Source of the DNA: Kosakonia oryzae
GTDB lineage: Bacteria; Pseudomonadota; Gammaproteobacteria; Enterobacterales; Enterobacteriaceae
Assembly (NCBI RefSeq): GCF_001658025.2
Contig: NZ_CP014007.2
Coordinates: 2,356,001-2,420,000, forward strand
Reading direction: 5' to 3'
DNA: 64,000 nt
Part shown: in pieces, positions 43,267 through 64,000 of the stretch
Position numbering within the stretch: position 1 is the first letter of the stretch
Layout of the letters: each line of letters opens with the position of its first letter
Notes under the pieces: generated by a model
What the model saw: only the letters and a program-made list of their open reading frames with translations
Told to the model about the DNA's origin: nothing
Database searches by the model: none
Translations under genes and position numbers: made by a program

Positions 43267-43297
43267 TTTATTCCCCTTCTGAAACGAATTATAAAGA

Positions 43298-43339
43298 GGG
43301 AAGGGCGTGAGGGATAAATTATGGCCTCACACCTTTCCC
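43298..43339 (-). other. Hairpin between the RhiA-like and 218-residue genes
   Basis: A 15 bp stem (43298-43312 with 43325-43339) with one wobble and one mismatch fills most of the 88 bp gap. On the minus strand only a short T-rich stretch follows. It may attenuate expression of the downstream gene relative to the RhiA-like gene. Confidence 0.55.
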
Positions 43340-43354
43340 CGCTGTTATTAACGG

Positions 43355-43972: not shown

Positions 43973-44022
43973 AATATCCACCTTGTGTATTGAGTGAAAA
44001 TAACGTGATGACAACTGCCTGC

Positions 44023-47755: not shown

Positions 47756-47784
47756 ATAATCGTTTCATTCGCAGGAAAGAAAAA

Positions 47785-48321: not shown

Positions 48322-48434
48322 GCTGGTTTACCTTGAATGGGAAAAGAAGCGACATTCAGCCCGCTTCTTTCTCATTACCATGCGCTGGCTTACGGTACGC
48401 CAGCGCGTGGTACAGAAAGCAGAGCAACGGTGGC

Positions 48435-48911: not shown

Positions 48912-49159
48912 CGCTGTACCGCCTGGTTAATCGTTTATCTACTCAGTTTTTTGCAGCGCGCAGTGTAAAGCACAATGCCTGCGCAGGCCATGCCTGGTTA
49001 AGTGTGAATGATAAATTTCTGCTCTGCGAGTGAGGAAAACCACGGAACGCCAGGCAGCAGGGGGAAAACGCCTGTCGCGCCCGTTAAGCGAACCGCCGGG
49101 TTCGCCAGTTCGGTGAAAATCCGTTATTATCCGCTGCCACTCTCCACTCGGGCTGCCCG

Positions 49160-49855: not shown

Positions 49856-49863
49856 AACGCGAA

Positions 49864-50460: not shown

Positions 50461-51609
50461 TCAGTCAAACAACCTGCGCCGCAGGATCCCTGCATCAATG
50501 GCAGCAACATGGGTCTTGCCGCAAAAAGCCATCGACAAATCGAATTCATTACGAATGATATTTAGCGCCAGGGTGACACCTTCTTCGCCCATCGCCCCTA
50601 AGCCATACAGCATACTGCGCCCGATATAGGTTCCTTTAGCCCCCAGCGCAATCGCCTTCAGCACATCCTGCCCGGAACGTATCCCGCCGTCGAAATGGAC
50701 TTCAATATCATTACCCACTGCGGCGACAATCTCTGGCAATAAGGTACTTGATGACGAGACGCCATCCAGTTGACGGCCGCCGTGATTAGAGACAATAAGC
50801 GCATCCGCGCCTGCCGCCACCGCCAGGCGGGCATCTTCTACGTCCATAATGCCTTTTACGATCAGCTTGCCGCCCCAGCGCCGTTTAATCCACTCAATAT
50901 CCTGCCAGGAGAGGCGCGGATCGAACTGCTGCGCTGTCCACTCCACCATGGCATCAATGTTATTAACACCGCTGGCGTGACCGATAATATTGCCAAAGTT
51001 ACGGTTGCGGGTTGCGAGCATATTGCGGCACCAGCGGGGTTTGCTGGCAATATTCAGCAGGTTGCGCAGCGTCATTTTCGGCGGCGTAGACAGGCCATTT
51101 TTAATGTCTTTATGGCGCTGCCCAAACACCTGGAGATCCATCGTCACGACCAGCGCACCGCAGTTGGCGGCCTTTGCGCGATCGATAAGATTCGCGACAA
51201 ACTGGCGATCGCGCATGACATAGAGCTGGAACCAGAAGGGATGGTAATCCGTAGCCTGCGCCACGGTTTCAATGGAACAAATACTCATTGTCGAAAGCGT
51301 AAAGGGGATGCCGAACGTTTTCGCTGCCCGTGCCGCAAGGATTTCGCCGTCGGGATGGATCATGCCGGTTAACCCCGTGGGGGCAATGGCTACGGGCATT
51401 GTTACAGGCTGTCCAAGCATCATGCTGGCGGTGCTGCGGGCGGTAATATCGACCGCCACGCGCTGGCGAAACTCAAGGCGACGTAAATCCGCTTCATTGG
51501 CACGATAGCTATATTCGCTCCACGAGCCGGCATCGACATAATCGTAAAACATTTTGGGCACCCGCTTACGCGCCAGTTGCCGGAGATCTTCAATGCAGGT
51601 GATGATCAT
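50461..51609 (-). CDS. FMN-dependent alpha-hydroxyacid dehydrogenase/oxidase (LldD-like)
   Basis: A 382-residue TIM-barrel flavoenzyme. It begins MIITCIEDLRQLARKRVP as in LldD. The active-site His-Gly-Gly-Arg is in SNHGGRQLDG, FMN contacts are in APTGLTGM and DGGIRSGQDVLKA, and the tyrosine is in QLYVMRD. It oxidises L-lactate or a related 2-hydroxyacid to the keto acid. ATG 51609 is preferred over GTG 51654 because it matches the family N-terminus. It lies downstream of the importer and monooxygenase genes, so a non-lactate substrate is plausible. Confidence 0.85.
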   Translation of the reverse strand: MIITCIEDLRQLARKRVPKMFYDYVDAGSWSEYSYRANEADLRRLEFRQRVAVDITARSTASMMLGQPVTMPVAIAPTGLTGMIHPDGEILAARAAKTFGIPFTLSTMSICSIETVAQATDYHPFWFQLYVMRDRQFVANLIDRAKAANCGALVVTMDLQVFGQRHKDIKNGLSTPPKMTLRNLLNIASKPRWCRNMLATRNRNFGNIIGHASGVNNIDAMVEWTAQQFDPRLSWQDIEWIKRRWGGKLIVKGIMDVEDARLAVAAGADALIVSNHGGRQLDGVSSSSTLLPEIVAAVGNDIEVHFDGGIRSGQDVLKAIALGAKGTYIGRSMLYGLGAMGEEGVTLALNIIRNEFDLSMAFCGKTHVAAIDAGILRRRLFD

Positions 51610-51680
51610 GTTGTTATCCAGGACGGTGTGGCTAAATAACGATGATTTAGCCACCGGTGACGATCAGAATACGTGGACAA

Positions 51681-52931
51681 TTATGATTTAACGTAGTCGG
51701 TATAAGCGTTCTGCAAAACAATATGATCGGCAATGTATTTCGCATCGTGCCATACACCATAAATAAACGATGATGCCCGGTTTACTAAATTAGGCAGGCC
51801 GAGAAAATAGATACCGCGCTCGGCGGAAATACCGCGTTTATGGAATGGCAGGCCTTTTTCGTCGAAGGCATCCACTTGCAGCCAGCTAAAATCAAATTTA
51901 AAACCCGTCGCCCAGATAATGGTGGTAATACCCGCTGCGGCAATATCTAATTGCGCCAGCGGATTGAGCAGACATTGCGGATCCGGCAGCAGTTCCCACG
52001 CCTGCGGCTCGGGCGGCAGATCCAGCCCGTTGCGTTCGATGTAAGCATCCGCATCGCGCAGCACGTCAAAGTAGGCGTTATCACCCGCAGCGATATTCTC
52101 CGCCAGGCCGTCGGCAAAGCTCAGGACACCGTTATCCCAGCTTTGGGTGATGCCCACCAGCGTAATACCCATATGCGCCAGGCGACGGAAATCGACGGTT
52201 TTACCGCCTTCATAGCCGCTTACCGCAAAAGCAACGTGCTCTTTTTTCGGTTTTATTTTCACTTCATCCCACAGGCCAAGCGCGCCGAGCCACCAGCAGT
52301 AATCACGGTCACGGTAGGCGCGCGGCGGGCGATAATGTTCGCCGACCGACAGATAAACGTCCCGGCCCGCTTTACGCAGCTCTTCGGCAATTTGCGTACC
52401 GGAAGCGCCAGCACCCACCACCAGCACGCCGCCTGAGGGCAGTTGCTGCGGGTTTTTGTAGACGGAAGAGTGAATCTGCTGCACGCCTGCGCTTTGCGGC
52501 ACGATCTGCGGGAATGAGGGTTTCTGAAACGGGCCGGTGGCGGCCACCACATTCGCGGCTTCAAATTCACCGGCGGAGGTCACCACTTTGAATCCGCTGC
52601 GTCCCGCCAGGCGCACAACCTGATGTACCTCAACGCCGGTGCGTACGGGAGCGTTAATCATCCTTGCATAGTCTTCAAAATATTGCGCCATGCGCTCTTT
52701 CGGCGGAAATGCTTCCTGGGAAATATTGTCGAATTTCAGCGATGGAAAGCGGTCGTGCCACGCGGGACCGTTCGCTACCAACGAATCCCAACGTTCAGAA
52801 CGCCAGCGTTCAGCGATGCGGCTGCGTTCCAGTACGACGTGGGGCACGCCCATTAATGCCAGATGCTCGCTCATGGCAATACCGGCCTGACCTGCGCCGA
52901 CAATGACGGTATTAATTTTTTCTACTGACAT
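51681..52931 (-). CDS. Flavin-containing monooxygenase-like oxidoreductase
   Basis: A 416-residue class B flavoprotein. The FAD motif GAGQAGIA is at residues 12-19. The FMO/BVMO-like region lies near 140 (GPFQKP), and the second Rossmann motif GAGASGTQIAEEL near 173. ATGF near 345 is the usual C-terminal motif. It may hydroxylate a nitrogen or sulfur, or act as a Baeyer-Villiger enzyme. It lies 130 bp after the importer permease genes and 71 bp before the hydroxyacid oxidase, same strand. Ribosome site AGGAATTC. Confidence 0.85.
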   Translation of the reverse strand: MSVEKINTVIVGAGQAGIAMSEHLALMGVPHVVLERSRIAERWRSERWDSLVANGPAWHDRFPSLKFDNISQEAFPPKERMAQYFEDYARMINAPVRTGVEVHQVVRLAGRSGFKVVTSAGEFEAANVVAATGPFQKPSFPQIVPQSAGVQQIHSSVYKNPQQLPSGGVLVVGAGASGTQIAEELRKAGRDVYLSVGEHYRPPRAYRDRDYCWWLGALGLWDEVKIKPKKEHVAFAVSGYEGGKTVDFRRLAHMGITLVGITQSWDNGVLSFADGLAENIAAGDNAYFDVLRDADAYIERNGLDLPPEPQAWELLPDPQCLLNPLAQLDIAAAGITTIIWATGFKFDFSWLQVDAFDEKGLPFHKRGISAERGIYFLGLPNLVNRASSFIYGVWHDAKYIADHIVLQNAYTDYVKS

Positions 52932-53061
52932 GTTGAATTCCTGGATATAAGCGACCCTCGATAGTTTTATCGCGAAGCGTAATCGGGTGTCGTATTAATG
53001 ATAATCAGGCGTCTTAAAGGCAGCGCACGGGAAATTCCAGTGCGCCTTCATTCACGGTTAA

Positions 53062-53880
53062 TTAATGTCTGGTCTCAATGTTCAATATTTTCCCCAGGCC
53101 TAAAAACTTATTGGCAATAATTAATAAGGTGGCGGTGACGGCAATATAAATAACCGACAGGGCCGCCAGTGTCGGGTCAGCAAATTCACGCACATAGTTG
53201 TACATTGCCACCGGTAAGGTCTGTGTTGCCTGGGTAGTAATAAACAACGACGCGGTAAATTCGTTAAACGAGAGGATCGCGGCAAACAGCCAGCCGCCAA
53301 ACAGGCCCGGCAAAATCAGCGGTACGGTGATGGTCCACACCACGCGCAATGGCGATGCGCCAAGGCTTGCTGCTGCCAGTTCAATGCGCTGTTCAAGGTT
53401 TTTTATCGACACATAAACGCTGCGCAGCACAAACGGCAGGACCAGCACGATGTGGCAGAAAATCACCAGCGGATAACCGCGCCCCAGGTTGAGTTGCGAC
53501 ACCAGCATCAGCAGGCCCAGGCCAATGGTGAAATGCGGGATAAACAGCGGCGACAGCAGAATCCCTTCCAGCACCTGCTTACACGGAAACGCATAGCGTT
53601 CGATAGCAATCGCCAGCGTGGTGCCGATGATCACCGCCAGTGACGATGCCCATGCGGTAACAATCAGCCCGGAGTAGAAGCCGTGACGGAAATCATCATA
53701 ATTCACCGCGCGCTCGAACCAGCGCAGCGACCAGCCTTTCGGCGGAAAGAACAACACGGCGGTACTGCTGAACGAGGAGATCACTACCACGATCGTCGGC
53801 AGCATCACAAAGAGCAGAATAGCAGCGACCAGCAGGCGGCCCGCCAGTACAGTCAGTTTGTCGTTGAGCGAACGGGTCAT
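53062..53880 (-). CDS. Spermidine/putrescine-type ABC permease (PotC-like)
   Basis: A 272-residue permease with six predicted membrane helices and the EAA loop EQRIELAAASLGASPLRVVWTITVPLILPG. The start is one base after the stop of the partner permease. The group imports polyamines, opines and related cations; the substrate here is unknown. Confidence 0.88.
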   Translation of the reverse strand: MTRSLNDKLTVLAGRLLVAAILLFVMLPTIVVVISSFSSTAVLFFPPKGWSLRWFERAVNYDDFRHGFYSGLIVTAWASSLAVIIGTTLAIAIERYAFPCKQVLEGILLSPLFIPHFTIGLGLLMLVSQLNLGRGYPLVIFCHIVLVLPFVLRSVYVSIKNLEQRIELAAASLGASPLRVVWTITVPLILPGLFGGWLFAAILSFNEFTASLFITTQATQTLPVAMYNYVREFADPTLAALSVIYIAVTATLLIIANKFLGLGKILNIETRH

Positions 53881-53881
53881 A

Positions 53882-54736
53882 TCAATGCTCTCCCATCGTG
53901 CGCAGGAATCGGGTCATGCGTTTGAGTGCCAGCAACAGCAGGATGGTCAGGATCAAACCGGCGATGCTCAGCGCGGCGGCAAACGGGAAGTTCATCGACG
54001 AGAAACCCAACTGATAGACCATGGTCGCCACGGTGCTGACGCGTCCGCCGCCAATAAGCTGCGGTGTGGCAAAGGCGCTAAAGGTCCAGGCAAACGCGGT
54101 AGTGAGGCTGGAGACAATGCCGGGGATCGAGAGGGGAATCGTCACGGTCAGCAGGGTACGGATCGGCCCTGCGCCCAGGCTGGCGGCGGCTTTCTCATAA
54201 TCCGGGTTGATGTGCGACAAGGCGGTCGCCAGCATCAGCACCATGATTGGCATGGTCACGTGCACCAGTGCCAGCACCACGCCGGTTTGCGTAAACATAA
54301 ACTGAATCGGCGTGGAGATAACGCCCAACGCCAGCAGCAGACTATTAAGGAAGCCGCTGTTACCCAGCACGATAATCCAGGAATAGGTGCGCACCACTTC
54401 GCCGAGAAACATCGGCGTAATCGCAATGATCAAAATCGCGGATTTGATCCATGTGGTGCGGGTGCGCACCAGCGCATACGCCAGCGGGTAGCTCATCAGC
54501 AGGCCAAAAATAGCGGTTTTCGCACTCAGCACGACGGTGTTAATAAACGCATCGGCATAGATGCTTTTGAACAGGCCTTTGAAGTTCGCCAGCGTAAATC
54601 CGCCCACGTCGAGCGAACCGGGAATATACGCCCGCACGCTGAACTGCATCACCGCGAACATCGCGACAACCAGCCCGACAGCGGCGAGCGTCGCGGGGAT
54701 GATGAACCAGGGTAAAAATGTCGGTTTTCTCGTCAT
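53882..54736 (-). CDS. Spermidine/putrescine-type ABC permease (PotB-like)
   Basis: A 284-residue permease with six helices and the EAA loop EKAAASLGAGPIRTLLTVTIPLSIPG. It follows the binding-protein gene by 65 bp. ATG 54736 is chosen because it begins directly before the first helix; the in-frame ATG upstream adds a non-hydrophobic 23-residue leader overlapping the preceding gene. Confidence 0.88.
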   Translation of the reverse strand: MTRKPTFLPWFIIPATLAAVGLVVAMFAVMQFSVRAYIPGSLDVGGFTLANFKGLFKSIYADAFINTVVLSAKTAIFGLLMSYPLAYALVRTRTTWIKSAILIIAITPMFLGEVVRTYSWIIVLGNSGFLNSLLLALGVISTPIQFMFTQTGVVLALVHVTMPIMVLMLATALSHINPDYEKAAASLGAGPIRTLLTVTIPLSIPGIVSSLTTAFAWTFSAFATPQLIGGGRVSTVATMVYQLGFSSMNFPFAAALSIAGLILTILLLLALKRMTRFLRTMGEH

Positions 54737-54801
54737 AGACCTTGCTGCCTGAGTAATGTGCTGCCGGTAGAACCCGGGCGGCCCGCAAGCCGCCCGATAA
54801 A

Positions 54802-55833
54802 TCAATGAGACATGATGTTTTCAGAGAACCACTGACGCCACTCTGCGGTTTTCTCGGCGCGCAGTTGCGGATCGGTATTGATGGTGGCATTCCACTGTGC
54901 AGGCGTGGTGAGCATGCCCGGCAGTTTCGCCAGCTCAGGATCGATATGCGCGTTGGTTACCGTTGGGCTGCCGTGATAAATCTTTGCCACCTGCTCCTGA
55001 ATGTCGGGCTTCAGGGCAATATTCATGAACTTATATGCAAGATCGCTATGTTTGGTGCCTTTGTTGATACCAATGGTATCGACGCCCAAAATCGCCCCCT
55101 CTTTGGGGATCGCCAGTTTGACGTCCACCCCTTCAGCCATCATGTTGTAGGCGTTCATCGACAGCATCACCTGTACCGGGGTTTCGCCCGTGGAGATCAA
55201 TTGCTGGCTGTTGGCATCATCGGTATAGAACGATTTGATATTCGGGATCAGCGCTTTCAGCTTCGCCTGGCCTTGCTCCCAGTGCGCCGCATCGCTGCCG
55301 GAAAGTTTGGCGGCCACCGCAATGATATGGCTCGGATCCCAGTCTGGCAGCGCCAGCGTACCTTTCAGCTCGGGCTTCCACAGATCGTTCCAACTGGTAA
55401 AGGTTTCACCTTTGGGCACCAGATCCGGACGATAGCCGATGGTGTAAACGTAGCCCCACACGCCGAGGTGATAAGGGCTGACTTTCGCCTGTTGCACCAG
55501 GTTTGCTGCGTTCGGGATTTTGCTCATATCGAGTTTTTCAAACAGGCCTGAGTTGGCGTACAGATAGCCCACATGCGCGGTGGTAAAGGTCACGTCAGTT
55601 TCCGGTGAACCGCCCGCCAGCTTGGCTTTGTTCAGGCGATCAATGGTGCCGCCAGTGACAAACTGCACTTCTACGCCGGTCTCTTTGGTGAACTCTTTGG
55701 CAATGGTTTCATCGATCAAATCTTTAAAACCGCCGCCCCAGGTGCTGACAATCAGCTTGTCAGCGGCCATCGCATTGCCTGCACTGAGCACGCATGTGGT
55801 CAACAACGTTAAGGCACAAATCTTACGCAACAT
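54802..55833 (-). CDS. Periplasmic binding protein of a polyamine/opine-type importer (PotD-like)
   Basis: A 343-residue protein with a clear signal peptide (LTLLTTCVLSAGNAMA, cleavage before ADKL). The mature part begins LIVSTWGGGFKDLIDET, typical of extracellular-binding family 1 proteins of the PotD/spermidine-putrescine class. The aromatic-rich region FTTAHVGYLYAN may line the pocket. First gene of the left arm, divergent from the LysR gene by 343 bp. Confidence 0.9.
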   Translation of the reverse strand: MLRKICALTLLTTCVLSAGNAMAADKLIVSTWGGGFKDLIDETIAKEFTKETGVEVQFVTGGTIDRLNKAKLAGGSPETDVTFTTAHVGYLYANSGLFEKLDMSKIPNAANLVQQAKVSPYHLGVWGYVYTIGYRPDLVPKGETFTSWNDLWKPELKGTLALPDWDPSHIIAVAAKLSGSDAAHWEQGQAKLKALIPNIKSFYTDDANSQQLISTGETPVQVMLSMNAYNMMAEGVDVKLAIPKEGAILGVDTIGINKGTKHSDLAYKFMNIALKPDIQEQVAKIYHGSPTVTNAHIDPELAKLPGMLTTPAQWNATINTDPQLRAEKTAEWRQWFSENIMSH

Positions 55834-56176
55834 ATTCTCATCCCCATCTTATGAAATGGCTGTTGTAGCAATCTGAAACCCGGCGCGCCGGAACGGTGCA
55901 AACGGTGTTCCCTGGTGTGAAAGCGATAATGACGTTGCGAGTTGATTCCGTAAAACAGCCTTTTCCTCGCCGTTGCATCAGGATTTCTGACGCTAAAAAA
56001 GGCGCTGCTTTGCAACGGATTTTCTTAACCAGTGATAAGGCTGAAGGGAAGGGCGGTACAACAAAACCAGGGAATTATGCTGTTATTTGTCGTTTGGCAT
56101 GATAAGTGCATAAAAATAAGCACTATTAGAATGACTGACGCGACATGATCGCGTCGGCGATCTCAGGAGAACCTGC
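55834..56176. other. Divergent control region of the importer and LysR genes
   Basis: 343 bp between the binding-protein and LysR starts. The right end holds the sigma-54-like element and the AGTGC dyad at 56095-56124. No convincing small gene was found. The left part should hold the importer promoter, not resolved by eye. Confidence 0.5.
56095..56124 (+). promoter_or_regulatory. Sigma-54-like element overlapping a candidate LysR dyad
   Basis: TGGCATGATAAGTGCA (56095-56110) matches TGGCACGN4TTGCA at 10 of 12 defined positions with correct GG-GC spacing. It overlaps the inverted repeat AGTGC-N10-GCACT (56105-56124), a possible LysR operator. The LysR ATG is 67 bp beyond the element. Either reading could be chance. 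Confidence 0.3.
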
Positions 56177-57139
56177 ATGCTCAGTCGCATAACCCAGCGT
56201 CAGCTGGAATATTTTGTCGCCTCGGGAGAGGCGGGCAGCATCATTGGCGCTTCAGAACGTATCCACGTTTCGTCGCCGTCGATCTCGGCTGCTATCACCC
56301 ATATCGAATCTGAACTTGGCGTACAGCTTTTTGTGCGCCATCACGCGCAGGGCGTTTCGCTCACGGCGATCGGTCATCAGGTTCTGAAAGAGGCGAAGCT
56401 CATTCTGGAGCAGATGTCGAACCTTTATACTATCGCGTCGGAATCCATGAACCATGTGCGCGGCCCGCTGCGCGTGGGCTGTCTGGATACGCTGGCGCCT
56501 ATGCTGACGCCCGAACTGGTGTTCGGCTTTGGCCGCGCGTTTCCCGGCGTGCGCATTACGCTTGTCGAAGGCAACCATGAACAGTTGCTGAAACAGTTGC
56601 GCACCGCCGACATCGATATCGCGTTGACCTACGATTTGGTTCCCGCCAGCGACATCGCATTTACGTCGCTGGCACAGTTGCCACCGTATGTGATGGTGGG
56701 TGAACATCATCCGCTGGCGACACAATCGGCGGTGACCATTCAGGATCTGGCGACGATGCCGATGGTGTTGCTGGATATGCCGTGGAGCCGTGAATATTTC
56801 CTCGGGCTGTTTAGCGAGGCGGGCGTAACGCCGAATGTGGTGATGCGCTCCAGCAATATGGAAGTGGTGCGTGCGATGGTGGCGAACGGCGTGGGGTTTG
56901 GTATCGCCAACGTGCGGCCGAAAGCGCATCTCTCCCAGGATGGCAAACGCCTGATTCGCGTACGGCTGGCCGGGACCAACAGGCCGATGCTACTCGGTTA
57001 CGCGACCGCCGCTCACACCCAGCACTCCATGGTGGTTAACGCCTTCGCTGAGCGCTGCCGCGTTTTTATCTCCGACCAGTATATTCCTGGCATGGCGGCA
57101 CCCAGTTATTTCGATCCGCAGGTGGTGCGGGTGGCGTGA
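56177..57139 (+). CDS. LysR-family regulator of the catabolic locus
   Basis: A 320-residue LysR regulator. The N-terminal helix-turn-helix is at about 3-62 (QRQLEYFVASGEAGSIIGAS). The effector domain starts with RGPLRVGCLDTLAPMLTPEL. It lies between the importer arm and the enzyme arm, so it probably controls both and senses the substrate or an intermediate. ATG 56177 follows AGGAGAA. Confidence 0.92.
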   Translation: MLSRITQRQLEYFVASGEAGSIIGASERIHVSSPSISAAITHIESELGVQLFVRHHAQGVSLTAIGHQVLKEAKLILEQMSNLYTIASESMNHVRGPLRVGCLDTLAPMLTPELVFGFGRAFPGVRITLVEGNHEQLLKQLRTADIDIALTYDLVPASDIAFTSLAQLPPYVMVGEHHPLATQSAVTIQDLATMPMVLLDMPWSREYFLGLFSEAGVTPNVVMRSSNMEVVRAMVANGVGFGIANVRPKAHLSQDGKRLIRVRLAGTNRPMLLGYATAAHTQHSMVVNAFAERCRVFISDQYIPGMAAPSYFDPQVVRVA

Positions 57140-57169
57140 TGGATGCCCGGCGGCGCAATGTAACGCCTG

Positions 57170-57205
57170 GCGCAATGTCGGCAGCATGGCTGCCAGACAT
57201 TGCGC
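57170..57205. terminator. Bidirectional hairpin between lysR and the enzyme arm
   Basis: A 10 bp outer stem (57170-57179 with 57196-57205) and a 6 bp inner stem (57180-57185 with 57189-57194), separated by one bulged base, close a 3-base loop. An extra direct copy of GGCGCAATGT at 57152-57161 could pair with the same right arm. It lies between convergent stop codons. Confidence 0.65.
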
Positions 57206-57214
57206 GGCTTTCCG

Positions 57215-58144
57215 TTAATACCCACGCTCCGGGAACACCTGATTGGTCACTGATTCACCGCGTGCGGCACGCAGGATGTTTTCTGCCACCTGCTGTGCGG
57301 CGCTGGCCGGGATGGCGACCGAGGCCAGATGCGGCGTGATCAGCACGTTATCCATCCGCCACAGCGGATCGCAGGAAGGCAGCGGCTCGCGGTCAAACAC
57401 ATCCAGCGTGGCTTCAGCAATCTGCCCTGAGCGCAGCGCGTCAGTCAGCGCCGCCTGATCGACAATCGCCCCGCGCGAAACATTAATGAACGCCGCGCCG
57501 TACGGCAGGCGCGACAGCCGCTCTGCACTCAGCAAGCCAGCGGTGTGCGGCGTGAGCGGCAGCATGACCACCAGAATGTCGCTCTGGCTGAGAAAATCAT
57601 TCAGCGACGCCAGCCCACTGCTGCACGTTATACCCGTCATCGCTTTTGGCGAACGCGACCAGCCGCGCACGTCGAACCCCTGTCGTACCAGTTCCCGCGC
57701 CGTATAGGCGCCCAACTCTCCCAAACCCAGCACACCAACCCGGATGCCGGAAGGTTTGCGTGGATGCAGGTAATGCCAGCGCTGTTCACGCTGCGCGCGT
57801 TCAAATGCCGGGATATCGCGCGCGTAGCGCAGCACGGCAAACAGCACGTACCCGGCCATCATGCGTGCCATATCCGGATCGGAGAGACGGATTATCGGAA
57901 TGTCCGGTAGATCGTCGCGTCCCACCAGCGAATCAACACCCGCGCCGAGATTCACCAACAGTTTGAGATTGCGGTACGGCGCAAAGAAGCCATGAGGCGG
58001 TTTCCATGCCAGCGCATAGTGCACCTCATCGGGGTTTTGCACCGTTTCGGCGCGGCAAATCGTCACGCCGGGCAAATGTGGGGCAAGTAAACCGGACCAC
58101 TCTTCGAAGCTGTCGAATTCGCTGTAAAACACTAATGTACTCAT
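57215..58144 (-). CDS. D-2-hydroxyacid dehydrogenase (GhrA-like)
   Basis: A 309-residue NAD(P)-dependent dehydrogenase of the glyoxylate/hydroxypyruvate reductase A type. Rossmann motif GLGELG is near 140. Catalytic Arg is in INVSRGA, Glu in DREPLP and His in ITPHLAS. It would interconvert a 2-ketoacid and a D-2-hydroxyacid. Its ATG overlaps the stop of the AroQ-like gene, so they are co-translated. Last gene of the right arm. Confidence 0.9.
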   Translation of the reverse strand: MSTLVFYSEFDSFEEWSGLLAPHLPGVTICRAETVQNPDEVHYALAWKPPHGFFAPYRNLKLLVNLGAGVDSLVGRDDLPDIPIIRLSDPDMARMMAGYVLFAVLRYARDIPAFERAQREQRWHYLHPRKPSGIRVGVLGLGELGAYTARELVRQGFDVRGWSRSPKAMTGITCSSGLASLNDFLSQSDILVVMLPLTPHTAGLLSAERLSRLPYGAAFINVSRGAIVDQAALTDALRSGQIAEATLDVFDREPLPSCDPLWRMDNVLITPHLASVAIPASAAQQVAENILRAARGESVTNQVFPERGY

Positions 58145-58590
58145 GCAGCGTGCGTTCCCAGCAGGTTGACCACCGCGTCGATCGCCAGCTCGTAACCGGC
58201 TGCGCCCAGCCCGGCAATCACACCGGTCGCCGCTTTCGACACCAGCGAGTGATGGCGGAACGGCTCGCGTTTCCAGATGTTGCTCATATGCGTTTCAATG
58301 ATCGGCCCATCAAACATCAGCAACGCATCAAGAATAGGCACCGAACTGTAGGTTAAACCCGCGGCGTTGATAATTAACCCCACCGCGTTCTGACGCGCCT
58401 CCTGAATCCAGTCAACCAATACGCCTTCGTGGTTGCTCTGGCGAAAATGCAATATCACACCATGTGACGCGGCGCGTCGCTGACAGCGCGCTTCGATGCT
58501 GACAAAACTTTCGCTGCCGTAGGTGCCGTTTTTATCCAGCCCATACAAATTGGCGTTCGGCCCATTGAGAAAATAGATCTGCTGTGACAT
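58141..58590 (-). CDS. AroQ-like (type II dehydroquinase fold) protein with altered active site
   Basis: A 149-residue protein with the type II 3-dehydroquinate dehydratase fold (NGPNANLYG, IINAAGLTYSS, PIIETHMSN, ATGVIAGLGAAGYELA). Numbering matches the M. tuberculosis enzyme without gaps through the active site. Tyr24, Asn75, Asp88, Glu99, His101 and Arg112 are conserved, but the catalytic Arg19 is Asp and His81 is Tyr. It is therefore unlikely to be a normal dehydroquinase; enterobacteria use type I AroD anyway. ATG 58590 follows AGGAG. It overlaps the hydroxyacid dehydrogenase gene by ATGA. Confidence 0.85.
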   Translation of the reverse strand: MSQQIYFLNGPNANLYGLDKNGTYGSESFVSIEARCQRRAASHGVILHFRQSNHEGVLVDWIQEARQNAVGLIINAAGLTYSSVPILDALLMFDGPIIETHMSNIWKREPFRHHSLVSKAATGVIAGLGAAGYELAIDAVVNLLGTHAA

Positions 58591-58602
58591 GCACACTCCT
58601 GA

Positions 58603-59214
58603 TTAATACGGACGCGTCGCGGCCATCGCCGGATGCGCATCGAAGAGGGCGAACCAGGCGGCGGTAAGCGGATGACCGTCGCGCCAGTTGAGCCCGGCAA
58701 AGCGGAAGTCGAGATAACCGAGCGCACAGCCAATGGCAATCAGCCCGATATCATTGGGATGAGTGCTGAAACTGCTGGCCTGGCCTTCGATCTCTGCCAG
58801 TGCGGCGGCAACTTTTTTCAGCTGCGCGTCAGCCCAGTTCTGCCACTGCTTCTCCGGGGGACGCGCACTGAATTCGTAACGTGCCAGTAATGCAGCATCG
58901 ATCATCCCGTCGCCCAGCGCCTGGCGTGCCAGACTTCTCCAGCGTGCATCACCCTGTGCCGGGTATAAATCGCCCCCGGCCCGCGCGTTGAGGTATTCGC
59001 AAATGACCCGGCTGTCATAGAGACAGAGCCCGTTTTCGGTGCGCAGCGCCGGTACTTTTGCCAGCGGATTAAACACGGCGATACGTTCGTCGCGCTCAAT
59101 TGGGTGGGCGGCAGAATCCAGCCGTTCTATCTCATCAGCCAGACCCAGTACGCTTGCGCACACCATCACTTTGCGTACATAAGCGGAGGTGGTGGCATAA
59201 AAGAGTTGCATCAT
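58603..59214 (-). CDS. Glutathione S-transferase family protein
   Basis: A 203-residue GST. The thioredoxin-like N-terminal domain has a Ser/Thr-rich start (ATTSAYVRKV) and the cis-proline and glutathione motif KVPALRTENG...YDSRVICEYL. The C-terminal half is all-helical. It may conjugate, isomerise or cleave a glutathione adduct in the pathway. ATGA overlap with the upstream quinone oxidoreductase gene. Confidence 0.9.
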   Translation of the reverse strand: MMQLFYATTSAYVRKVMVCASVLGLADEIERLDSAAHPIERDERIAVFNPLAKVPALRTENGLCLYDSRVICEYLNARAGGDLYPAQGDARWRSLARQALGDGMIDAALLARYEFSARPPEKQWQNWADAQLKKVAAALAEIEGQASSFSTHPNDIGLIAIGCALGYLDFRFAGLNWRDGHPLTAAWFALFDAHPAMAATRPY

Positions 59215-60206
59215 GGCGCCACCTGCAGCAGCACTTTGCCGATGTTGGCATTGGCCTCAAGGAGACGATGAGCGTCAGCGGCTTGCGCTAACGGTAAGGT
59301 TTGATACAGCGTCGGTGCGATTTTGCCTGCGCCGATCAGCGGCAGCAGATGTTTGTTGATGCACTGCGCCAGCCGCATTTTTTCGGCCACGCTTTTGGGG
59401 CGCAGGGTAGAAGAGGTGAGGCTCAGCCCTTTGCGCATCACCAGTTGCAGATCGAGTTCAATCTTCGCGCCCTGCATAAATGAAAGGCTGATATGACGTC
59501 CGCCCGGCGCTAACGCGCTCAGGTTGCGCGCCACGTAATCGCCACCGACATTATCCAGCACCACATCGACACCGCGTCCTTCGGTTGCGGCAAGCACGAC
59601 GGCGACGAAATCTTCGCTGTGGCGGTTGATGGCGTGCCAGACACCGAGCTGTTGCAGCGCCGCAATCTTTTCACTCCCGCCAGCCGTCGCAATCACCCGC
59701 GCCCCGCATGCCTGCGCACATTGAATAGCAAAGGTGCCAACACCGCTTGCTGCACCGTGAATCAGTACGCTTTCACCCGGCTGCAAACGCCCCAGTTCAA
59801 ACAGGTTATGCCACACGGTAAATGCCGCCTCCGGCACGCCTGCGGCCTGCGCGAGCGGCAGCGTTTCCGGCACGGATAAACAGAGTTCAGCACGCGCCAC
59901 GCAGTAGTCCGCATAACCGCCGCCATTGAGCAGCGCCATGACCGGCGAGCCAACCGCGGGGAATTCAACACCCGCGCCCAGCGCCACCACAGTACCGGAG
60001 ACTTCCAGCCCCAGCACATCGGTTACCCCTGGCGGCAACGGCATGCCATTGCGCTGCAGAATATCGGGGCGATTGACCCCCGCACTGGCCACACGGATCA
60101 GCACTTCACCGGCGCCAGGCTGCGGCACAGGGCGCTGTACGCGCTCTAACACCTCCGGGCCGCCCGGGCGGCAGGCAATCACGGCATTCATCATTTCAGG
60201 TATCAT
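59211..60206 (-). CDS. NAD(P)H quinone oxidoreductase (PIG3/QOR type)
   Basis: A 331-residue zinc-free medium-chain reductase. N-terminal VNRPDILQRNG is typical of PIG3-type quinone oxidoreductases, and the cofactor motif HGAASGVGTFAIQ is near 150. It probably reduces an enone or quinone. Stop overlaps the GST start; 6 bp after the ATPase gene. Start may be at Met5 or Met6. Confidence 0.88.
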   Translation of the reverse strand: MIPEMMNAVIACRPGGPEVLERVQRPVPQPGAGEVLIRVASAGVNRPDILQRNGMPLPPGVTDVLGLEVSGTVVALGAGVEFPAVGSPVMALLNGGGYADYCVARAELCLSVPETLPLAQAAGVPEAAFTVWHNLFELGRLQPGESVLIHGAASGVGTFAIQCAQACGARVIATAGGSEKIAALQQLGVWHAINRHSEDFVAVVLAATEGRGVDVVLDNVGGDYVARNLSALAPGGRHISLSFMQGAKIELDLQLVMRKGLSLTSSTLRPKSVAEKMRLAQCINKHLLPLIGAGKIAPTLYQTLPLAQAADAHRLLEANANIGKVLLQVAP

Positions 60207-60212
60207 TGCGGC

Positions 60213-61358
60213 TTATCCCTGCTTCGCCGTGCTAAATGCGCACACGCCTTCGTCATCGACACTCACGCCAACCAGGCTACCGACTGGCCAGCGCGTCAGC
60301 GAATTCAGGCCGGACTGGCGGGCAAACAGCGCGGCGTTGCCCAGTGCAGGCACATCAAGATGGACATCAACATGATCGCCCTGAAAGACATGGGCGATAA
60401 CCGTGGCGCTCAACAATGAATGCGGGCCAAGCGCAGCCAGTTGAATATTTTCCGGACGGACGTAGACATCAAGGCGCTCGCCAATCGTGGCATGAACGCG
60501 CTCTGCTGGCAGACGCAGCACATTACCGCCCAGATCGAGTATTGCATCGCCATCGCGACCGGCGTAGCGCCCCGGCAGAATGTTTACATCACCGACAAAA
60601 CCCGCGACAAACGGATCCTGCGGACGGCGATAAATCTCATCCGGCGTGCCGATCTGGCGTACATGGCCTGCCGACATCACCACCACGCGATCGCTCATGC
60701 TCAGCGCTTCACCCTGATCGTGCGTCACGAAAACGGTGGTGACGCCCAGCTTGCGCTGAATCGCTTTCAACTCAACCTGCATTGACAGGCGCAGGTTTTT
60801 GTCCAGTGCGGAGAAAGGTTCATCCAGCAGCAGCACTTTAGGGCGAATGACCAACGCGCGGGCCAGCGCCACGCGCTGCTGCTGGCCGCCAGAAAGTTCA
60901 CGTGGCTTGCGGTGGCCATAACCGGCAAGTTTCACCAGCGCCAGCGCCTGCTCAACGCGTTCAGCAATCTCGGCTTTCGGCACACCGCGCATACGCAGGC
61001 CGTAACCCACGTTCTTCTCGACCGTCATATGTGGGAACAGTGCGTAGTTCTGAAAGACAATGCCGATTTCACGCTGCCAGGGCGGTATATCGGTAACCAG
61101 ATCGCCATCAATGAAGATTTCGCCGCCGTCCGCTTCGGCGAAACCCGCCATCAGATTCAGCAGCGTGGTTTTACCGCAGCCGGAAGGGCCTAGCAGCGTA
61201 ATAAATTCCCCTTCCTCAATCATCAGGGAAATTTTGTGTAAGGCGATGGCATCGCCAAAGCGTTTCAGTACGCCATCAAGCCGTACGGCAACGTGAGTGT
61301 GCGCGACGGGGGGCAGCGTTGCGGGCTGCGGGAATGTGGTGACTTCTGCACTGACCAT
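60213..61358 (-). CDS. ABC importer ATPase (PotA-like)
   Basis: A 381-residue ATPase of the spermidine/putrescine class. Walker A is GPSGCGKTT near 58, Q-loop FQNYALFPHM, signature LSGGQQQRVALARAL, Walker B LLLDEPFSALD, then a C-terminal TOBE domain. It is the missing ATPase for the binding protein and permeases on the other side of the LysR gene, although encoded among the enzymes. Confidence 0.92.
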   Translation of the reverse strand: MVSAEVTTFPQPATLPPVAHTHVAVRLDGVLKRFGDAIALHKISLMIEEGEFITLLGPSGCGKTTLLNLMAGFAEADGGEIFIDGDLVTDIPPWQREIGIVFQNYALFPHMTVEKNVGYGLRMRGVPKAEIAERVEQALALVKLAGYGHRKPRELSGGQQQRVALARALVIRPKVLLLDEPFSALDKNLRLSMQVELKAIQRKLGVTTVFVTHDQGEALSMSDRVVVMSAGHVRQIGTPDEIYRRPQDPFVAGFVGDVNILPGRYAGRDGDAILDLGGNVLRLPAERVHATIGERLDVYVRPENIQLAALGPHSLLSATVIAHVFQGDHVDVHLDVPALGNAALFARQSGLNSLTRWPVGSLVGVSVDDEGVCAFSTAKQG

Positions 61359-61480
61359 GGAATCTCCAGAAACGGGCTATCAAATACTGACCACCAGCAT
61401 ACGGCTTCAGCGTGCATCATGCGGTTAGTGCTTCCTGAAGCTGGCATTTGGAAAAGTTAAAGCAGTAAAGGGTGGGGGAA

Positions 61481-61516
61481 TAAATGCCGGGCGGCCGAGG
61501 ACGCGCCCGGCATTTA
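61481..61516 (-). other. Strong hairpin between the M20 deacylase and ATPase genes
   Basis: A perfect 13 bp stem (61481-61493 with 61504-61516) with a 10-base loop. It lies in a 184 bp gap inside the right arm. No U-tract follows. It may stabilise the upstream message, act as an attenuator or be a REP-type element. Confidence 0.6.
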
Positions 61517-61542
61517 CGGTGCGATAGTGTTGGGCGGCAACG

Positions 61543-62700
61543 TTATGCTTTTTGGCACATCCATATAGCAAGACGGCGTAGCAGGGCATCGCAGGCGTCC
61601 AACTGTTCAACGGTGATAAACTCATCCGCTTTATGGCCCTGCGCCATACTGCCTGGCCCGCAGACCACGCTGGGAATACCCGCCTGATGAAACAACCCTC
61701 CTTCCGTACCGAATGCGACGGTGCTGAACGCACTGGAACCCGTGAGATGAGCAAGCAGTCGCGCCGCGGCGCTTTGCGCGGCGGTGTACAAACCGGGATA
61801 ACCGCTGATGGGATAAAAGCGGATCGCCGCATCACTATTCACGGCGTGCATTTGCGGCAGGAGTTCGCGCTGCGCGTAATGCTCCAGTTCCTCGGCTACT
61901 TCCTGCGCGTCATCCTGCGGCAATGTGCGGACCTCGAAGTCAAACGTACATTCGGCAGGCACGATATTGAGCGCCCGGCCACCCTGAATAACGCCCGTTT
62001 GCACGGTGGTAAACGGCGGATCAAAACGCGCATCCTGATGTTCCGGCGCGGCCAGCCGCTGGCCTATCACCGTAAGCTTCTGGATAAGCTTTGCGGCATA
62101 TTCGATGGCATTCACGCCCTGTGGTGCGTAGGCCGAATGGCAGGCGGCACCCTGTACTTCACAGCGCACGCCGAGCTTGCCTTTGTGGCCGAGCACGGGT
62201 TGCAATTCGGTGGGTTCGCCAATCAGGCAGATATCGGGCTTTTCCGGCCGCTGAGAGAGCGCGTCCAGCAGCGTTCGCACGCCAAGGCATCCCACTTCCT
62301 CATCATAAGAGATTGCCAGATGCAGCGGTTGCGCCAGCGGCTGCGTAAGAAAATAGGGTACGGCTGCCAGCATGCAGGCGATAAAGCCTTTCATGTCCGC
62401 CGTGCCGCGACCGTACAGTTTGCCTTCTCGCTCAGTCAGCACAAAGGGGGGAACGCTCCAGTTCTGCCCGTCAACGGGCACCACGTCGCTGTGGCCCGAG
62501 AGCATCACGCCGCCGCTACCCGATGGGCCAAGCCGGGCATACAGATTCGCTTTGCTGCGTTCGGCGTTGTGAATCAGTTCGCACTCGACACCAAGCCCGG
62601 TTAAGTAGCGACGAACAAAGTCGATCAGCGCCAGATTAGATTCGCGGCTGGTGGTGTTAAACGCCACCAGTTGTTCCAGCAGTTTGCGGCTGCTCATCAT
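61543..62700 (-). CDS. M20 deacylase (ArgE-like acetylornithine deacetylase family)
   Basis: A 385-residue zinc peptidase/deacylase. Metal motifs are GHSDVVP, GTADMKGF and the Glu pair in YDEEVGC, with GEPTELQP downstream. It has the length of ArgE. In this locus it more likely removes an acyl or amide group from an imported compound than makes ornithine. Third gene of the right arm, 15 bp after the DUF1028 gene. Confidence 0.88.
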   Translation of the reverse strand: MMSSRKLLEQLVAFNTTSRESNLALIDFVRRYLTGLGVECELIHNAERSKANLYARLGPSGSGGVMLSGHSDVVPVDGQNWSVPPFVLTEREGKLYGRGTADMKGFIACMLAAVPYFLTQPLAQPLHLAISYDEEVGCLGVRTLLDALSQRPEKPDICLIGEPTELQPVLGHKGKLGVRCEVQGAACHSAYAPQGVNAIEYAAKLIQKLTVIGQRLAAPEHQDARFDPPFTTVQTGVIQGGRALNIVPAECTFDFEVRTLPQDDAQEVAEELEHYAQRELLPQMHAVNSDAAIRFYPISGYPGLYTAAQSAAARLLAHLTGSSAFSTVAFGTEGGLFHQAGIPSVVCGPGSMAQGHKADEFITVEQLDACDALLRRLAIWMCQKA

Positions 62701-62715
62701 CAGATCTCCTTGCGG

Positions 62716-63390
62716 TTACTCGTCGCCCGGCACGCCGTAACCCGGTGCACTGCGGGGATCGAGCGCGCGGGTTAAATAGTCCTGCATCTGCGGTTTGTAG
62801 GCTTGCCAGAGCTGGCTAAGTTCAGCAATCGGATCGGCGTCCGTCCAGTCAACGCGTAAATCAACAATCGGCCAGACTGGCGAATCGACAATCGACAGCG
62901 CCGCCGAATGCACCGGGCCAGCTTCTCCGCCCGCGAGCAGGCCCGCCTGCATCGCAGCAATGAGCCTGTCAGCAAGATGCCCTGATTGCTGTTCGAAGGC
63001 GTTGACCATTGCGGTAATGACCTCCGCGTTTGCCAGCAGATTACCCGCCGCCACGCAGTTCTCCCCGCGCAGCGCGTTGTTCACTCCCAGCGTCTTTTCG
63101 CCGCTGTAGAACGCGCTTTCACCGCTGGCCGTCAGCACGGTAACCTGCCGGTACATGGCGTAGTCATCCGTACCAAGCCCGAATTGCAGCGCGGTTTCGG
63201 CAGCGTCGCCTTGCTGTAGCCGATCAAGAATGCGCGGCCCCAGCGCCGGTAAGGTGATGTTTTGCGTTGATACCGCGCCGACCTTGCTGCGCAGCCAGGG
63301 GCAGCGTGCGCCGACCGCGATGCTGGATGAGCTGATAGCAATGCCGATCTGGCCGGTTTGCGCGCAGCGTCCGATAATCGATAACGTCAT
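62716..63390 (-). CDS. DUF1028 family protein
   Basis: A 224-residue protein beginning MTLSIIGRCAQTGQIGIAIS, with AVGARCPWLRSKVGAVSTQN and the glycine-rich GNLLANAEVI, the DUF1028 pattern. The fold resembles Ntn hydrolases, which suggests amide hydrolysis; this is family knowledge and not proven here. It lies 4 bp after the RidA-like gene. Similar genes occur near amidohydrolases and RidA proteins. Confidence 0.85.
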   Translation of the reverse strand: MTLSIIGRCAQTGQIGIAISSSSIAVGARCPWLRSKVGAVSTQNITLPALGPRILDRLQQGDAAETALQFGLGTDDYAMYRQVTVLTASGESAFYSGEKTLGVNNALRGENCVAAGNLLANAEVITAMVNAFEQQSGHLADRLIAAMQAGLLAGGEAGPVHSAALSIVDSPVWPIVDLRVDWTDADPIAELSQLWQAYKPQMQDYLTRALDPRSAPGYGVPGDE

Positions 63391-63394
63391 GAGT

Positions 63395-63829
63395 TTAGGC
63401 TCCTGATTGCGGCTGCCAGTCGTCCGGAATCACCGCGATAACATCAATTTCCATCAGCCACTGCGGCTGACCAAGCGCAGAAATGACCAGTCCGGTTGAG
63501 ATCGGAAATACACCCTTCAGCCATTTGCCAACCACTTGATAAACCGGCTCGCGGTAGCGGGGGTCGATGATATAGGTGGTGGTTTTAACGATGTGTGACA
63601 GATCGCTGCCCGCTTCTTCCAGCAGTTGTTTCACGTTCTTCATCGCTTGCTCGGCCTGCGCTGCCGGATCGCCAAGCCCCACCAGGTTGCCTTCGAAATC
63701 AGTACCAATCTGCCCGCGAACGTACACGGTATTGCCAGCGCGTACCGCCTGGCAAAGATCGTTATCAAGCGACTGATTTGGGTAAGTATCTTTCGTATTG
63801 AATTTGCGAATGCGGGTATGTGTGCTCAT
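63395..63829 (-). CDS. RidA-family protein lacking the usual arginine
   Basis: A 144-residue RidA/YjgF-like protein. The trimer-interface and C-terminal regions are recognisable (VYVRGQIGTD, VKTTTYIIDP, FPISTGLVISALGQPQW, MEIDVIAVIP). The active-site arginine of RidA (Arg105 in E. coli, within FPARS) is replaced by Ser111. It therefore belongs to the non-archetypal Rid subfamilies and may not be an imine deaminase. First gene of the right arm. Confidence 0.88.
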   Translation of the reverse strand: MSTHTRIRKFNTKDTYPNQSLDNDLCQAVRAGNTVYVRGQIGTDFEGNLVGLGDPAAQAEQAMKNVKQLLEEAGSDLSHIVKTTTYIIDPRYREPVYQVVGKWLKGVFPISTGLVISALGQPQWLMEIDVIAVIPDDWQPQSGA

Positions 63830-63858
63830 GTCTGCCTGCCTGGAAATGGGTTCCCGGC

Positions 63859-63870
63859 AAGGTATACCTT
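63859..63870. promoter_or_regulatory. Palindrome upstream of the right arm
   Basis: AAGGTATACCTT is a perfect 12 bp palindrome 30 bp before the RidA-like start codon, where the right-arm promoter should be. Possible operator; no protein can be named. Confidence 0.3.
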
Positions 63871-64000
63871 CTCAGGCTACAACAAATAAAACAGAATAAT
63901 CCGAGGCGTTAGTTTAGAAAATGCGAACGCCCCCAAACCCACACCGCTTTTGTGCGCATAAAACGGCGAAGCGCCCCGGCACAAAAGGCCTGATCACGTG

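Follow-up and report, generated by a model that had tools for sequence, protein, structure and literature searches.

The window, the whole 64,000-nucleotide stretch of Kosakonia oryzae DNA that was analysed, contains a self-contained, horizontally mobile gene island, which is also carried by plasmids of Klebsiella and Escherichia coli. In a reading that we hold tentatively, a compound imported into the cell is used by this island and its core enzymes open an N-heterocyclic ring, most likely one of the imidazole-acetate type.

Layout and mobility of the island

An earlier note on this DNA had described thirteen genes around one LysR regulator as a single catabolic-looking locus with an importer split over two arms. 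All 14 open reading frames (thirteen genes and the LysR gene) were confirmed at 50461-63829, and the family assignments of the 14 proteins from Pfam and NCBIfam profile searches agreed with the earlier naming; the description of the locus is likewise supported. The features are as follows.

63830..63945, no strand: promoter region of the Rid arm, a block conserved in an alignment of 22 loci
63395..63829, minus: Rid-family protein without the RidA arginine; PF01042
62716..63390, minus: DUF1028 protein; PF06267, 225.6 bits
61543..62700, minus: M20 deacylase, ArgE-like; Peptidase_M20, NF005710
60213..61358, minus: ABC importer ATPase, PotA-like; PF00005 and TOBE_2, TIGR01187 368.8 bits, above the cut-off of 355.6
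59211..60206, minus: NAD(P)H quinone oxidoreductase (QOR), PIG3 family, perhaps an ene reductase; TIGR02824 407.9 bits, above 296.8
58603..59214, minus: GST of YibF type; GST_N/GST_C, best solved relative named YibF-like
58141..58596, minus: AroQ-like protein; PF01220 (DHquinase_II)
57215..58144, minus: D-2-hydroxyacid dehydrogenase, GhrA-like; PF02826 (2-Hacid_dh_C), GhrA model 216.8 bits, below the cut-off of 403
56177..57139, plus: LysR-type regulator; HTH_1 and LysR_substrate
55834..56176, no strand: LysR/SBP divergent control region; alignment of 21 loci and pattern scan
54802..55833, minus: periplasmic solute-binding protein (SBP), PotD-like family; SBP_bac_8
53882..54805, minus: ABC permease, PotB-like; PF00528 (BPD_transp_1)
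53062..53880, minus: ABC permease, PotC-like; PF00528 (BPD_transp_1)
51681..52931, minus: flavin monooxygenase-like protein (FMO); Pyr_redox_3, TIGR04046 346.8 bits, below 498.35
50461..51654, minus: FMN-dependent alpha-hydroxyacid oxidase/dehydrogenase, LldD-like, optional member; PF01070 (FMN_dh), 446 bits

Two minus-strand blocks, Rid to GhrA-like and SBP to LldD-like, flank the plus-strand LysR gene, which is divergent from the SBP gene across a gap of 343 bases. Profile searches of the 14 proteins revealed neither an amine oxidase nor a PLP enzyme family, and no nitrilase. The LldD-like gene, present in 12 of 29 linked clusters, is a peripheral, optional member of the set. Its GTG start (51654) is unsure: NCBIfam models reach the protein only from residue 16, the annotated lengths of plasmid copies are 368, 387 and 399 amino acids, and one stop interrupts the aligned stretch of pUUH239.2.

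Alignments showed that the block upstream of the Rid arm and the SBP-side region are each conserved across loci, and an inverted repeat in the LysR/SBP gap (55975-55993) is conserved as far as Pseudomonas in the 21 loci aligned. A LysR motif shared by both arms was rejected: the likeness was 13/20 in the block and at best 14/20 anywhere, and 20 shuffles gave 13-15/20. Scanning with a pattern returned three matches against 0.11 expected, a circular comparison since the pattern was built from the same sites; one match lay elsewhere.

Of 72,556 plasmid records, 107 contained a single region matching 80% or more of the island; Klebsiella pneumoniae accounted for 54 of the 60 matches listed, and pUUH239.2 was among the carriers. 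The plasmid hosts are Klebsiella and E. coli of human and farm origin, and all nine plasmid copies examined kept the 14 genes in the same order. Comparison with four relatives gave dN/dS values of 0.02-0.19 for every gene computed (0.02-0.04 for Rid, the most conserved protein of the set), which marks purifying selection on the genes compared. A clean empty insertion site was not found in the two relatives compared, whose matches are confined to the DUF2058 gene and its neighbour. Main-text passages of papers naming pUUH239.2 contained no mention of polyamines or transport.

Linkage across genomes and a wider core module

In 37 genome loci with an SBP relative at 48% identity or more, each gene was called at a set identity threshold of its own; 29 of these loci also carry the Rid, DUF1028, PotA, GST, AroQ-like and GhrA-like genes. 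These 29 span Enterobacteriaceae, Erwiniaceae, Pseudomonadaceae, Alcaligenaceae and Phyllobacteriaceae in different gene orders, and the arms form a single conserved unit. Rare linkage of the arms had been named in advance as grounds for abandoning the idea of one locus, and the count favours that idea. In the eight exceptions, five Bradyrhizobium and three alphaproteobacterial MAGs, only the importer is seen, although the sequences of three of the Bradyrhizobium loci (L022-L024) stop some 2 kb upstream of the match and more genes could lie beyond. In another Bradyrhizobium (L021), the importer adjoins a 2-oxoacid decarboxylase-like pair that scores below cut-offs, with related frames in L025. 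Two trees give 9 and 12 changes in the linkage of the AroQ-like gene, of which at least 6 and 8, respectively, fall on supported branches, indicating that the core and the upper arm were joined, or parted, repeatedly.

Sixty loci were examined, 52 of them with this Rid; within 10 kb, DUF1028 was found in 49 of the 52 and M20 in 33. FMO or HpaB is present in 49 of the Rid loci, in 47 inside the stretch examined (a figure read off gene-order strings by eye) and in L149 and L167 just beyond it, whereas L168, L170 and L171 have neither in the stretch examined. HpaB accounts for 13 of the 52, often together with a flavin reductase; in L034 this reductase scores best against the NCBIfam model RutF, though below its cut-off. 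The core-only loci examined showed no relatives of GST and QOR. FMO, Rid, DUF1028 and M20 are a smaller, wider-spread module with swapped importers and feeding enzymes. The view of the thirteen genes as one pathway was too simple in that it overlooked this module and the optional nature of the LldD-like gene.

The neighbours of the core vary. On Streptomyces and Pseudonocardia plasmids, FMO, Rid, DUF1028, M20 and aspartate ammonia-lyase genes stand in a row, the Streptomyces lyase scoring above one NCBIfam subfamily cut-off. The lyase adjoins the core in L198 and L205, lies within the locus in L036, L037 and L203, and is absent from the window set. Aminobacter and Paracoccus encode HutD, otherwise a histidine-utilisation protein, close to the core. 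Elsewhere the core is accompanied by relatives of alcohol oxidase, class-III aminotransferase (matching PRK07036, a model naming no substrate) or aldehyde dehydrogenase. In Leisingera it adjoins genes for flavin reductase, LLM oxidoreductase and hydrolase, a set that we take to be trigonelline-like. Cytosine-type permeases occur in several core loci, a GbcA-like Rieske protein in three and agmatinase-like neighbours at some.

Residues diagnostic of function

The importer shares its architecture and family with PotABCD, the spermidine/putrescine importer, and had been called polyamine-type. Alignment of the SBP with PotD structures showed His, Leu and Gly in place of Glu171, Trp229 and Trp255, whereas the equivalents of Asp168 and Asp257 are kept; all five are, by our assumption as to numbering and role, polyamine contacts. 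With most of these contacts gone, polyamine import appears improbable and was rejected, and the label is not supported. Judged by its family, a dedicated ABC importer probably takes up the compound used by the island.

The AroQ-like protein belongs to the DHquinase_II family (PF01220, 162.6 bits; cut-off 23.3) and has its fold family in common with type II dehydroquinase AroQ, retaining the equivalents of Asn16, Tyr28, Asn79, Glu104, His106, Ser108 and Arg117. It differs in having Asp, as do the relatives aligned, for Arg23, which in AroQ numbering we take to be catalytic, and Tyr for His85. The genome has a second, canonical AroQ at C1:493427 (204.7 bits versus 162.2 for the window copy) that keeps the catalytic Arg and adjoins a biotin-carrier (accB-like) frame; no type I dehydroquinase was found in the genome. 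Given the loss of Arg23 and the canonical enzyme elsewhere, a dehydroquinase role was rejected for the window protein, which is neither the sole nor the housekeeping dehydroquinase of the shikimate pathway.

In the alignment, the window Rid has Ser where human p14.5 (1oni) has the Arg that marks the RidA arginine position. Passages of PMC4433059 describe this arginine as carboxylate-binding, with about 10% of RidA proteins carrying Ser there, and report that Rid proteins without it are of unknown function and probably not imine hydrolases. RidA-type imine deamination would consequently not be expected of the window Rid. The protein scores 36.7 bits against the RutC NCBIfam equivalog, below the cut-off of 169.1.

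The second residue of DUF1028 is Thr in 26 of 26 aligned proteins, whose starts had been trimmed with a pattern demanding Thr or Ser there; without trimming, Thr is second in separately aligned rows and, by tblastn, in 54 of 55 loci, the exception being L202, whose match starts further in. This predicted nucleophile would be exposed after Met removal, as in N-terminal-nucleophile enzymes. The sole solved structure found at a significant E-value in the profile search was 2imh, presumably a four-layer Ntn fold. DUF1028 is a possible N-terminal-nucleophile hydrolase. M20 passes NF005710 (575.9 bits, cut-off 412) and TIGR01892 (391.4, cut-off 297.7) and fails NF003474 (266.2 versus 460); its best solved relative is the acetylornithine deacetylase 7rsf. 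The suggestion of amide cleavage stands, through M20 and possibly DUF1028. The family nearest to FMO among curated models is MSMEG_0569 (TIGR04046), whose flavoprotein we assume to belong to the Nit1C (cyanide/nitrile) cluster; the window monooxygenase differs in falling below the cut-off of that model, and the locus in having no nitrilase. Literature leads on homarine and Nit1C gave nothing usable among the matches listed.

Candidate routes and their alternatives

The reactions of the imidazole route, their order and the identity of the ring are inferred. FMO would oxidise the ring to an imidazolone; DUF1028, as an N-terminal-Thr hydrolase, would hydrolyse the lactam, giving an N-formimidoyl amino acid; the Rid without the arginine, as a deiminase acting on a formimidoyl or an enamine intermediate, would turn C=NH into C=O with release of ammonia; and the ArgE-like M20 would take off the formyl group to leave aspartate. 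The importer, GhrA-like, AroQ-like, GST, QOR and optional LldD-like proteins would cut back an oxygenated side chain before ring opening; this chain may be a 2-hydroxy or 2-keto acid. The imidazole-4-acetate branch of histamine degradation comprises imidazoleacetate monooxygenase, formimidoylaspartate deiminase, formylaspartate deformylase and aspartase. By step type, the number and kind of steps are the same (one monooxygenase and three hydrolase- or deiminase-like, with the lyase in two actinobacteria), but the 2-hydroxyacid, AroQ-like, GST and QOR upper part of the window is missing from it. Aspartate ammonia-lyase after the core in two actinobacteria would fit the end of the proposed route, and the alcohol oxidase, aminotransferase and aldehyde dehydrogenase neighbours would be in line with alcohol or amine forms feeding into an acid. 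The HutD neighbours, Thr2 of DUF1028 and the 2-oxoacid decarboxylase-like pair beside the importer in L021 also count in favour of this reading.

Several points stand against the imidazole reading. AroQ-like, GST and QOR would have no place in an imidazole-acetate route, and aspartase adjoins the core only in the two actinobacteria, is nearby in Aminobacter and is not in the window. The importer lacks the core in eight of the 37 loci over the stretch covered, three Rid loci lack FMO and HpaB, and the report on arginine-less Rid proteins (PMC4433059) disfavours imine hydrolysis. Passages of the P. aeruginosa histamine paper PMC6234866 yielded no pathway genes.

The Leisingera neighbours and cytosine-type permeases would equally suit another heterocycle. 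A pyridine-, pyrimidine- or betaine-like ring opened in a Rut-like manner, by monooxygenase, amidohydrolase, Rid and reductase, is rather unlikely but would account for HpaB with its RutF-best flavin reductase, the LLM oxidoreductase genes and the GbcA-like protein. The Rut pyrimidine pathway also unites monooxygenase, hydrolase, Rid and reductase in one set; kin of the locus, however, use FMO or HpaB rather than RutA, M20 and DUF1028 replace RutB and RutD, and the window Rid is far from the RutC cut-off. Such a substrate would leave the aspartate ammonia-lyase, HutD and agmatinase-like neighbours unexplained.

It is unlikely that the compound is an N-acylated or cationic amine (an opine or conjugate) that is taken up, cleaved at its amide and oxidised to hydroxy and keto acids. 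The M20 scores, an importer of the polyamine/opine family and the hydroxyacid enzymes point that way, but the PotD contacts are mostly gone, amine oxidase and PLP families are absent, and the separate core module would have no explanation. GST and PIG3-type QOR are typical detoxification families, and the cargo is retained on plasmids from human samples; neutralisation of an electrophilic or quinone-like plant compound by GST, QOR and FMO is nevertheless improbable, as a binding-protein importer and a hydrolase chain suggest use as food and core-only loci showed no GST or QOR relatives. That two unrelated units merely lie side by side is very improbable, since core and importer arm are each found alone but 29 of 37 loci link them over five families in different orders, with repeated changes of linkage on the trees.

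To our knowledge, old activities of the formimidoyl-aspartate deiminase and formyl-aspartate deformylase type lack assigned genes. It is possible, if doubtful, that all parts of the imidazole reading hold jointly: DUF1028 would hydrolyse the imidazolone (lactam) through its N-terminal threonine, Rid lacking the arginine would be the formimidoyl-aspartate deiminase, M20 would be the formyl-aspartate deformylase, and the island would be nutritional cargo for a histidine-derived (imidazole) hydroxy acid on large Klebsiella plasmids, including the multidrug-resistance plasmid pUUH239.2. In the openly licensed PMC literature searched, no paper on DUF1028/COG3342 or naming the gene set, and no assigned function for the 14 genes, was found, in keeping with the earlier note, which knew of no named pathway with this exact set.

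The annotations ‘acetylornithine deacetylase’, ‘dehydroquinate dehydratase’ and ‘polyamine transporter’ are mostly unsupported by the residues tested. More than 100 sequenced plasmids, many from human Klebsiella samples, carry the whole pathway, and knowing its substrate would show which benefits beyond resistance the hosts draw from them. Testable functions for DUF1028 and arginine-less Rid proteins would follow from the core module; if true, the joint imidazole reading would provide the first functions for these two unexplained protein groups.

Composition and linkage of the island

The window is part of a 5.416-Mb single-contig genome, and its positions 50461–63829 hold 14 open frames. Family matches were obtained for all 14, bearing out the gene families named in the earlier note: Rid, DUF1028, an ArgE-like M20 protein, PotA, QOR, GST, an AroQ-like and a GhrA-like protein in one arm; LysR; and the binding protein (SBP), PotB, PotC, FMO and an LldD-like protein in the other. 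The G+C content of this island is 57.1%, compared with 52.8% both in the 10 kb to its left (40001–50000) and in the 10 kb past the window end. Among the loci listed, the nearest named relative at the locus is Kosakonia arachidis (binding protein 99% identical), and the host is accordingly termed Kosakonia-like. No description of the island was found in the literature searched.

Comparison with the copies of plasmid pUUH239.2, Phytobacter, Pantoea and Pseudomonas gave dN/dS values of 0.02–0.19, with the GST and FMO ratios against Pseudomonas not computable, the LldD-like gene compared with pUUH239.2 only, and synonymous change near saturation in the two more distant comparisons. Purifying selection acts on the island genes.

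The earlier note had read the genes as one locus whose importer is split over two arms. When named genomes were scanned by pattern, with the binding protein as query, at least 77 loci were kept, and 37 among the matches listed encode a protein at least 48% identical. In 29 of these 37 the arms are linked, with Rid, DUF1028, PotA, GST, AroQ-like and GhrA-like genes all present. Within the 29, M20, QOR, FMO and LysR were each found in 25, PotB and PotC in 28 and the LldD-like gene in 12, some misses being due to loci that end early (L014, L034, L036 and L037); on the Aminobacter MSH1 plasmid, ArgE and QOR lie further along. Of the eight loci without the remaining genes, three are alphaproteobacterial MAGs and five come from Bradyrhizobium, three of the latter being truncated ∼2 kb away from the match. 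Kosakonia, Phytobacter, Superficieibacter, Trabulsiella, Pseudescherichia and Pantoea share one gene order, while Pseudomonas, Achromobacter, Pigmentiphaga and Aminobacter have the genes together in a different order; the set therefore stays linked through rearrangement. Distribution in the host family is sporadic (binding protein in 11 of 198 genomes). The two arms are one unit, not two.

The gap between LysR and SBP contains an inverted repeat (55975–55993) and a second conserved block (21 loci, Pseudomonas included), and conservation is likewise seen ahead of Rid (22 loci). The inverted repeat alone is not rare: it gave two strand matches of one site at no more than 3 mismatches, a number reached by 17 of 100 shuffles. 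No likeness beyond chance was found between the LysR-SBP gap and the Rid upstream region, and joint control of both arms by LysR is a plausible hypothesis.

Genes appear in pieces in two loci. In Phytobacter ursingii (L009, ∼3200–5000), the tblastn map places potA in two pieces with extra DNA between, and on a plasmid of Pseudomonas sp. T1-3-2 (L029), Rid, GST, GhrA-like, SBP and PotB are each in two pieces, reflecting decay or sequencing errors. Elsewhere in the window, 32620–36297 and 38429–40003 hold genes for a large urea-carboxylase-like enzyme, biotin-dependent and with carboxyltransferase domains, and for a branched-chain-type permease near it, perhaps a locus for urea uptake and use; 24670–27060 is a phosphoketolase (XFP) gene.

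Carriage on plasmids

Searched with the 13.4-kb island, PLSDB (72,556 records) yielded 107 records in which a single place covers at least 80% of the query. The best 60 of the 107 are 84.8–85.0% identical (54 Klebsiella pneumoniae and 6 E. coli, Homo sapiens being the stated source for 38), and are not independent because many are near-copies. The binding protein is encoded at E 1e-70 or better in 134 plasmid records, including 103 from Klebsiella, 13 from Pantoea and 7 from Escherichia; 96 of the 134 were typed as conjugative. All 14 genes occur in the window's order in every one of the nine plasmid regions opened.

Plasmids with the full island: p115123-KPC; pRHB39-C24_2; K. oxytoca P1; E. 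coli IncY plasmid; pKP13-53-tet(A); pUUH239.2; Kp23-unnamed1; pRHB39-C10_3; SWHE1 unnamed2

A passage of PMC12485182 describes pUUH239.2 as a multidrug-resistance plasmid. Replicons of the island plasmids vary (IncFII, IncFIB, IncHI1B, IncR, IncFIA and IncY). In six of the nine regions vapBC adjoins Rid, and in two an IS5-family transposase gene lies immediately next to the island at each end, an arrangement like that of a composite transposon. None of 5,426 complete E. coli genomes held 80% of the island in one place, and one plasmid copy among them was split over two places. The island is thus mobile cargo.

Other genes were noted next to plasmid copies. The E. coli IncY plasmid has a PAS-domain chemoreceptor gene (L192:5921–7498), with Tn3-type genes on one side and the island on the other; its product might detect the same compound. 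On Klebsiella plasmids (L189 23719–28043, L191 and L193), a sugar-type set adjoins it, consisting of an MFS porter, a ROK family protein, a SIS-domain protein and a DeoR-type regulator.

The core module in other genomes

Of 398 genomes sampled from the phylum, 37 were found to hold the Rid in a profile search, and DUF1028 was present in 38 of 299. The 40 neighbourhoods and nine plasmid records opened revealed a recurrent module of monooxygenase, Rid, DUF1028, M20 and LysR. Sixty loci were compared, eight chosen for DUF1028 alone and 52 having Rid. Within 10 kb in the 52 Rid loci lay DUF1028 (49), M20 (at least 33, a lower bound as the annotated M20 of L198 and L205 was missed by the search), AroQ-like (18) and an aldehyde dehydrogenase relative (17). 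FMO or HpaB was found within the stretch in 47 of the 52, and FMO just past its end in L149 and L167; neither was found near Rid in L168, L170 and L171. HpaB, often with a flavin reductase, was within 10 kb in 13. Importers beside the core vary, being of Pot, polar amino acid, branched-chain, TRAP, cytosine-permease or MFS type.

Linkage to the AroQ-like gene changes 9 times on the DUF1028 tree and 12 times on the Rid tree, with supported branches accounting for at least 6 and 8 of these changes; the core has repeatedly gained or lost the upper arm. Eleven core-only loci of the same class (L140–L148, L150 and L202) have a Rid 90–95% identical to that of the window, whereas their FMO, DUF1028 and M20, where found, are 59–72% identical. 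This is taken as a sign that core-only loci and the window may share the Rid substrate.

Several neighbours were recorded. Beside the AroQ-linked version, a DctP-type (TRAP) binding protein gene accompanies an Amdase-family protein (L157 5925–7735; L167 17356–19118), the assignment having been tested in L157, with relatives in L167; further Amdase relatives occur in L017, L026, L028 and L038. An LldD-like relative (65%; L209 8808–9965) lies within ∼15 kb of a core-only module in genome G473. In L170 and L171, where DUF1028 gave no match, a further Rid copy has ABC importer genes and an agmatinase-like protein as neighbours; this could be a shorter pathway acting on a guanidino or formimidoyl compound.

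Active-site residues and a possible route

In AroQ numbering, alignment shows that the window's AroQ-like protein keeps Asn16, Tyr28, Asn79, Glu104, His106, Ser108 and Arg117, with Arg23 replaced by Asp, as in its aligned relatives, and His85 by Tyr. The genome has a canonical AroQ elsewhere, beside an accB-like frame, and no type I dehydroquinase was found in it, so the AroQ-like protein is hardly a shikimate enzyme. The binding protein retains Asp168 and Asp257 of PotD and has lost Glu171, Trp229 and Trp255.

Proteasome-like N-terminal-nucleophile hydrolases use a threonine behind the start methionine. DUF1028, whose one solved relative is 2imh, has Thr2 in 26 of 26 proteins whose starts were trimmed with a pattern requiring Thr or Ser at residue 2, and untrimmed tblastn matches agree in 54 of 55 loci; Ser4, Arg81, Gln82, Gly116-Asn117, Ser162 and Asp181 are also conserved. 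In Rid, the carboxylate-binding arginine is replaced by Ser. Passages of PMC4433059 put Ser at this position in ∼10% of RidA proteins and say of subfamilies without the arginine that their function is unknown and imine hydrolysis unlikely.

The core comprises one oxygenase and three hydrolase-like proteins, which may open an imidazole-type ring as in the imidazole-acetate route. The classical route employs an FAD monooxygenase, ring opening, a deiminase, a deformylase and aspartase, and has the same shape. Aspartate ammonia-lyase directly follows the core in Streptomyces and Pseudonocardia. Other neighbours fit the route: HutD near the core in some loci; agmatinase-like proteins next to two additional copies of Rid and, with a score below its cut-offs, in Aminobacter; and, beside the core, a relative of alcohol oxidase, of class-III aminotransferase or of aldehyde dehydrogenase. 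The window's GhrA-like and optional LldD-like proteins suggest a 2-hydroxy or 2-oxo acid side chain. The importer of Bradyrhizobium L021 adjoins a pair resembling sulfopyruvate/phosphonopyruvate decarboxylase, below the cut-offs.

The window's AroQ-like, GST and QOR have no explained place in the imidazole-acetate-type proposal, and the main rival is that the set acts on another N-heterocycle. As a whole, the imidazole-acetate-type proposal is held tentatively, with confidence falling a little short of even. With the identity of its pathway standing as a hypothesis, the island is real, conserved and mobile, and in kind a catabolic operon.
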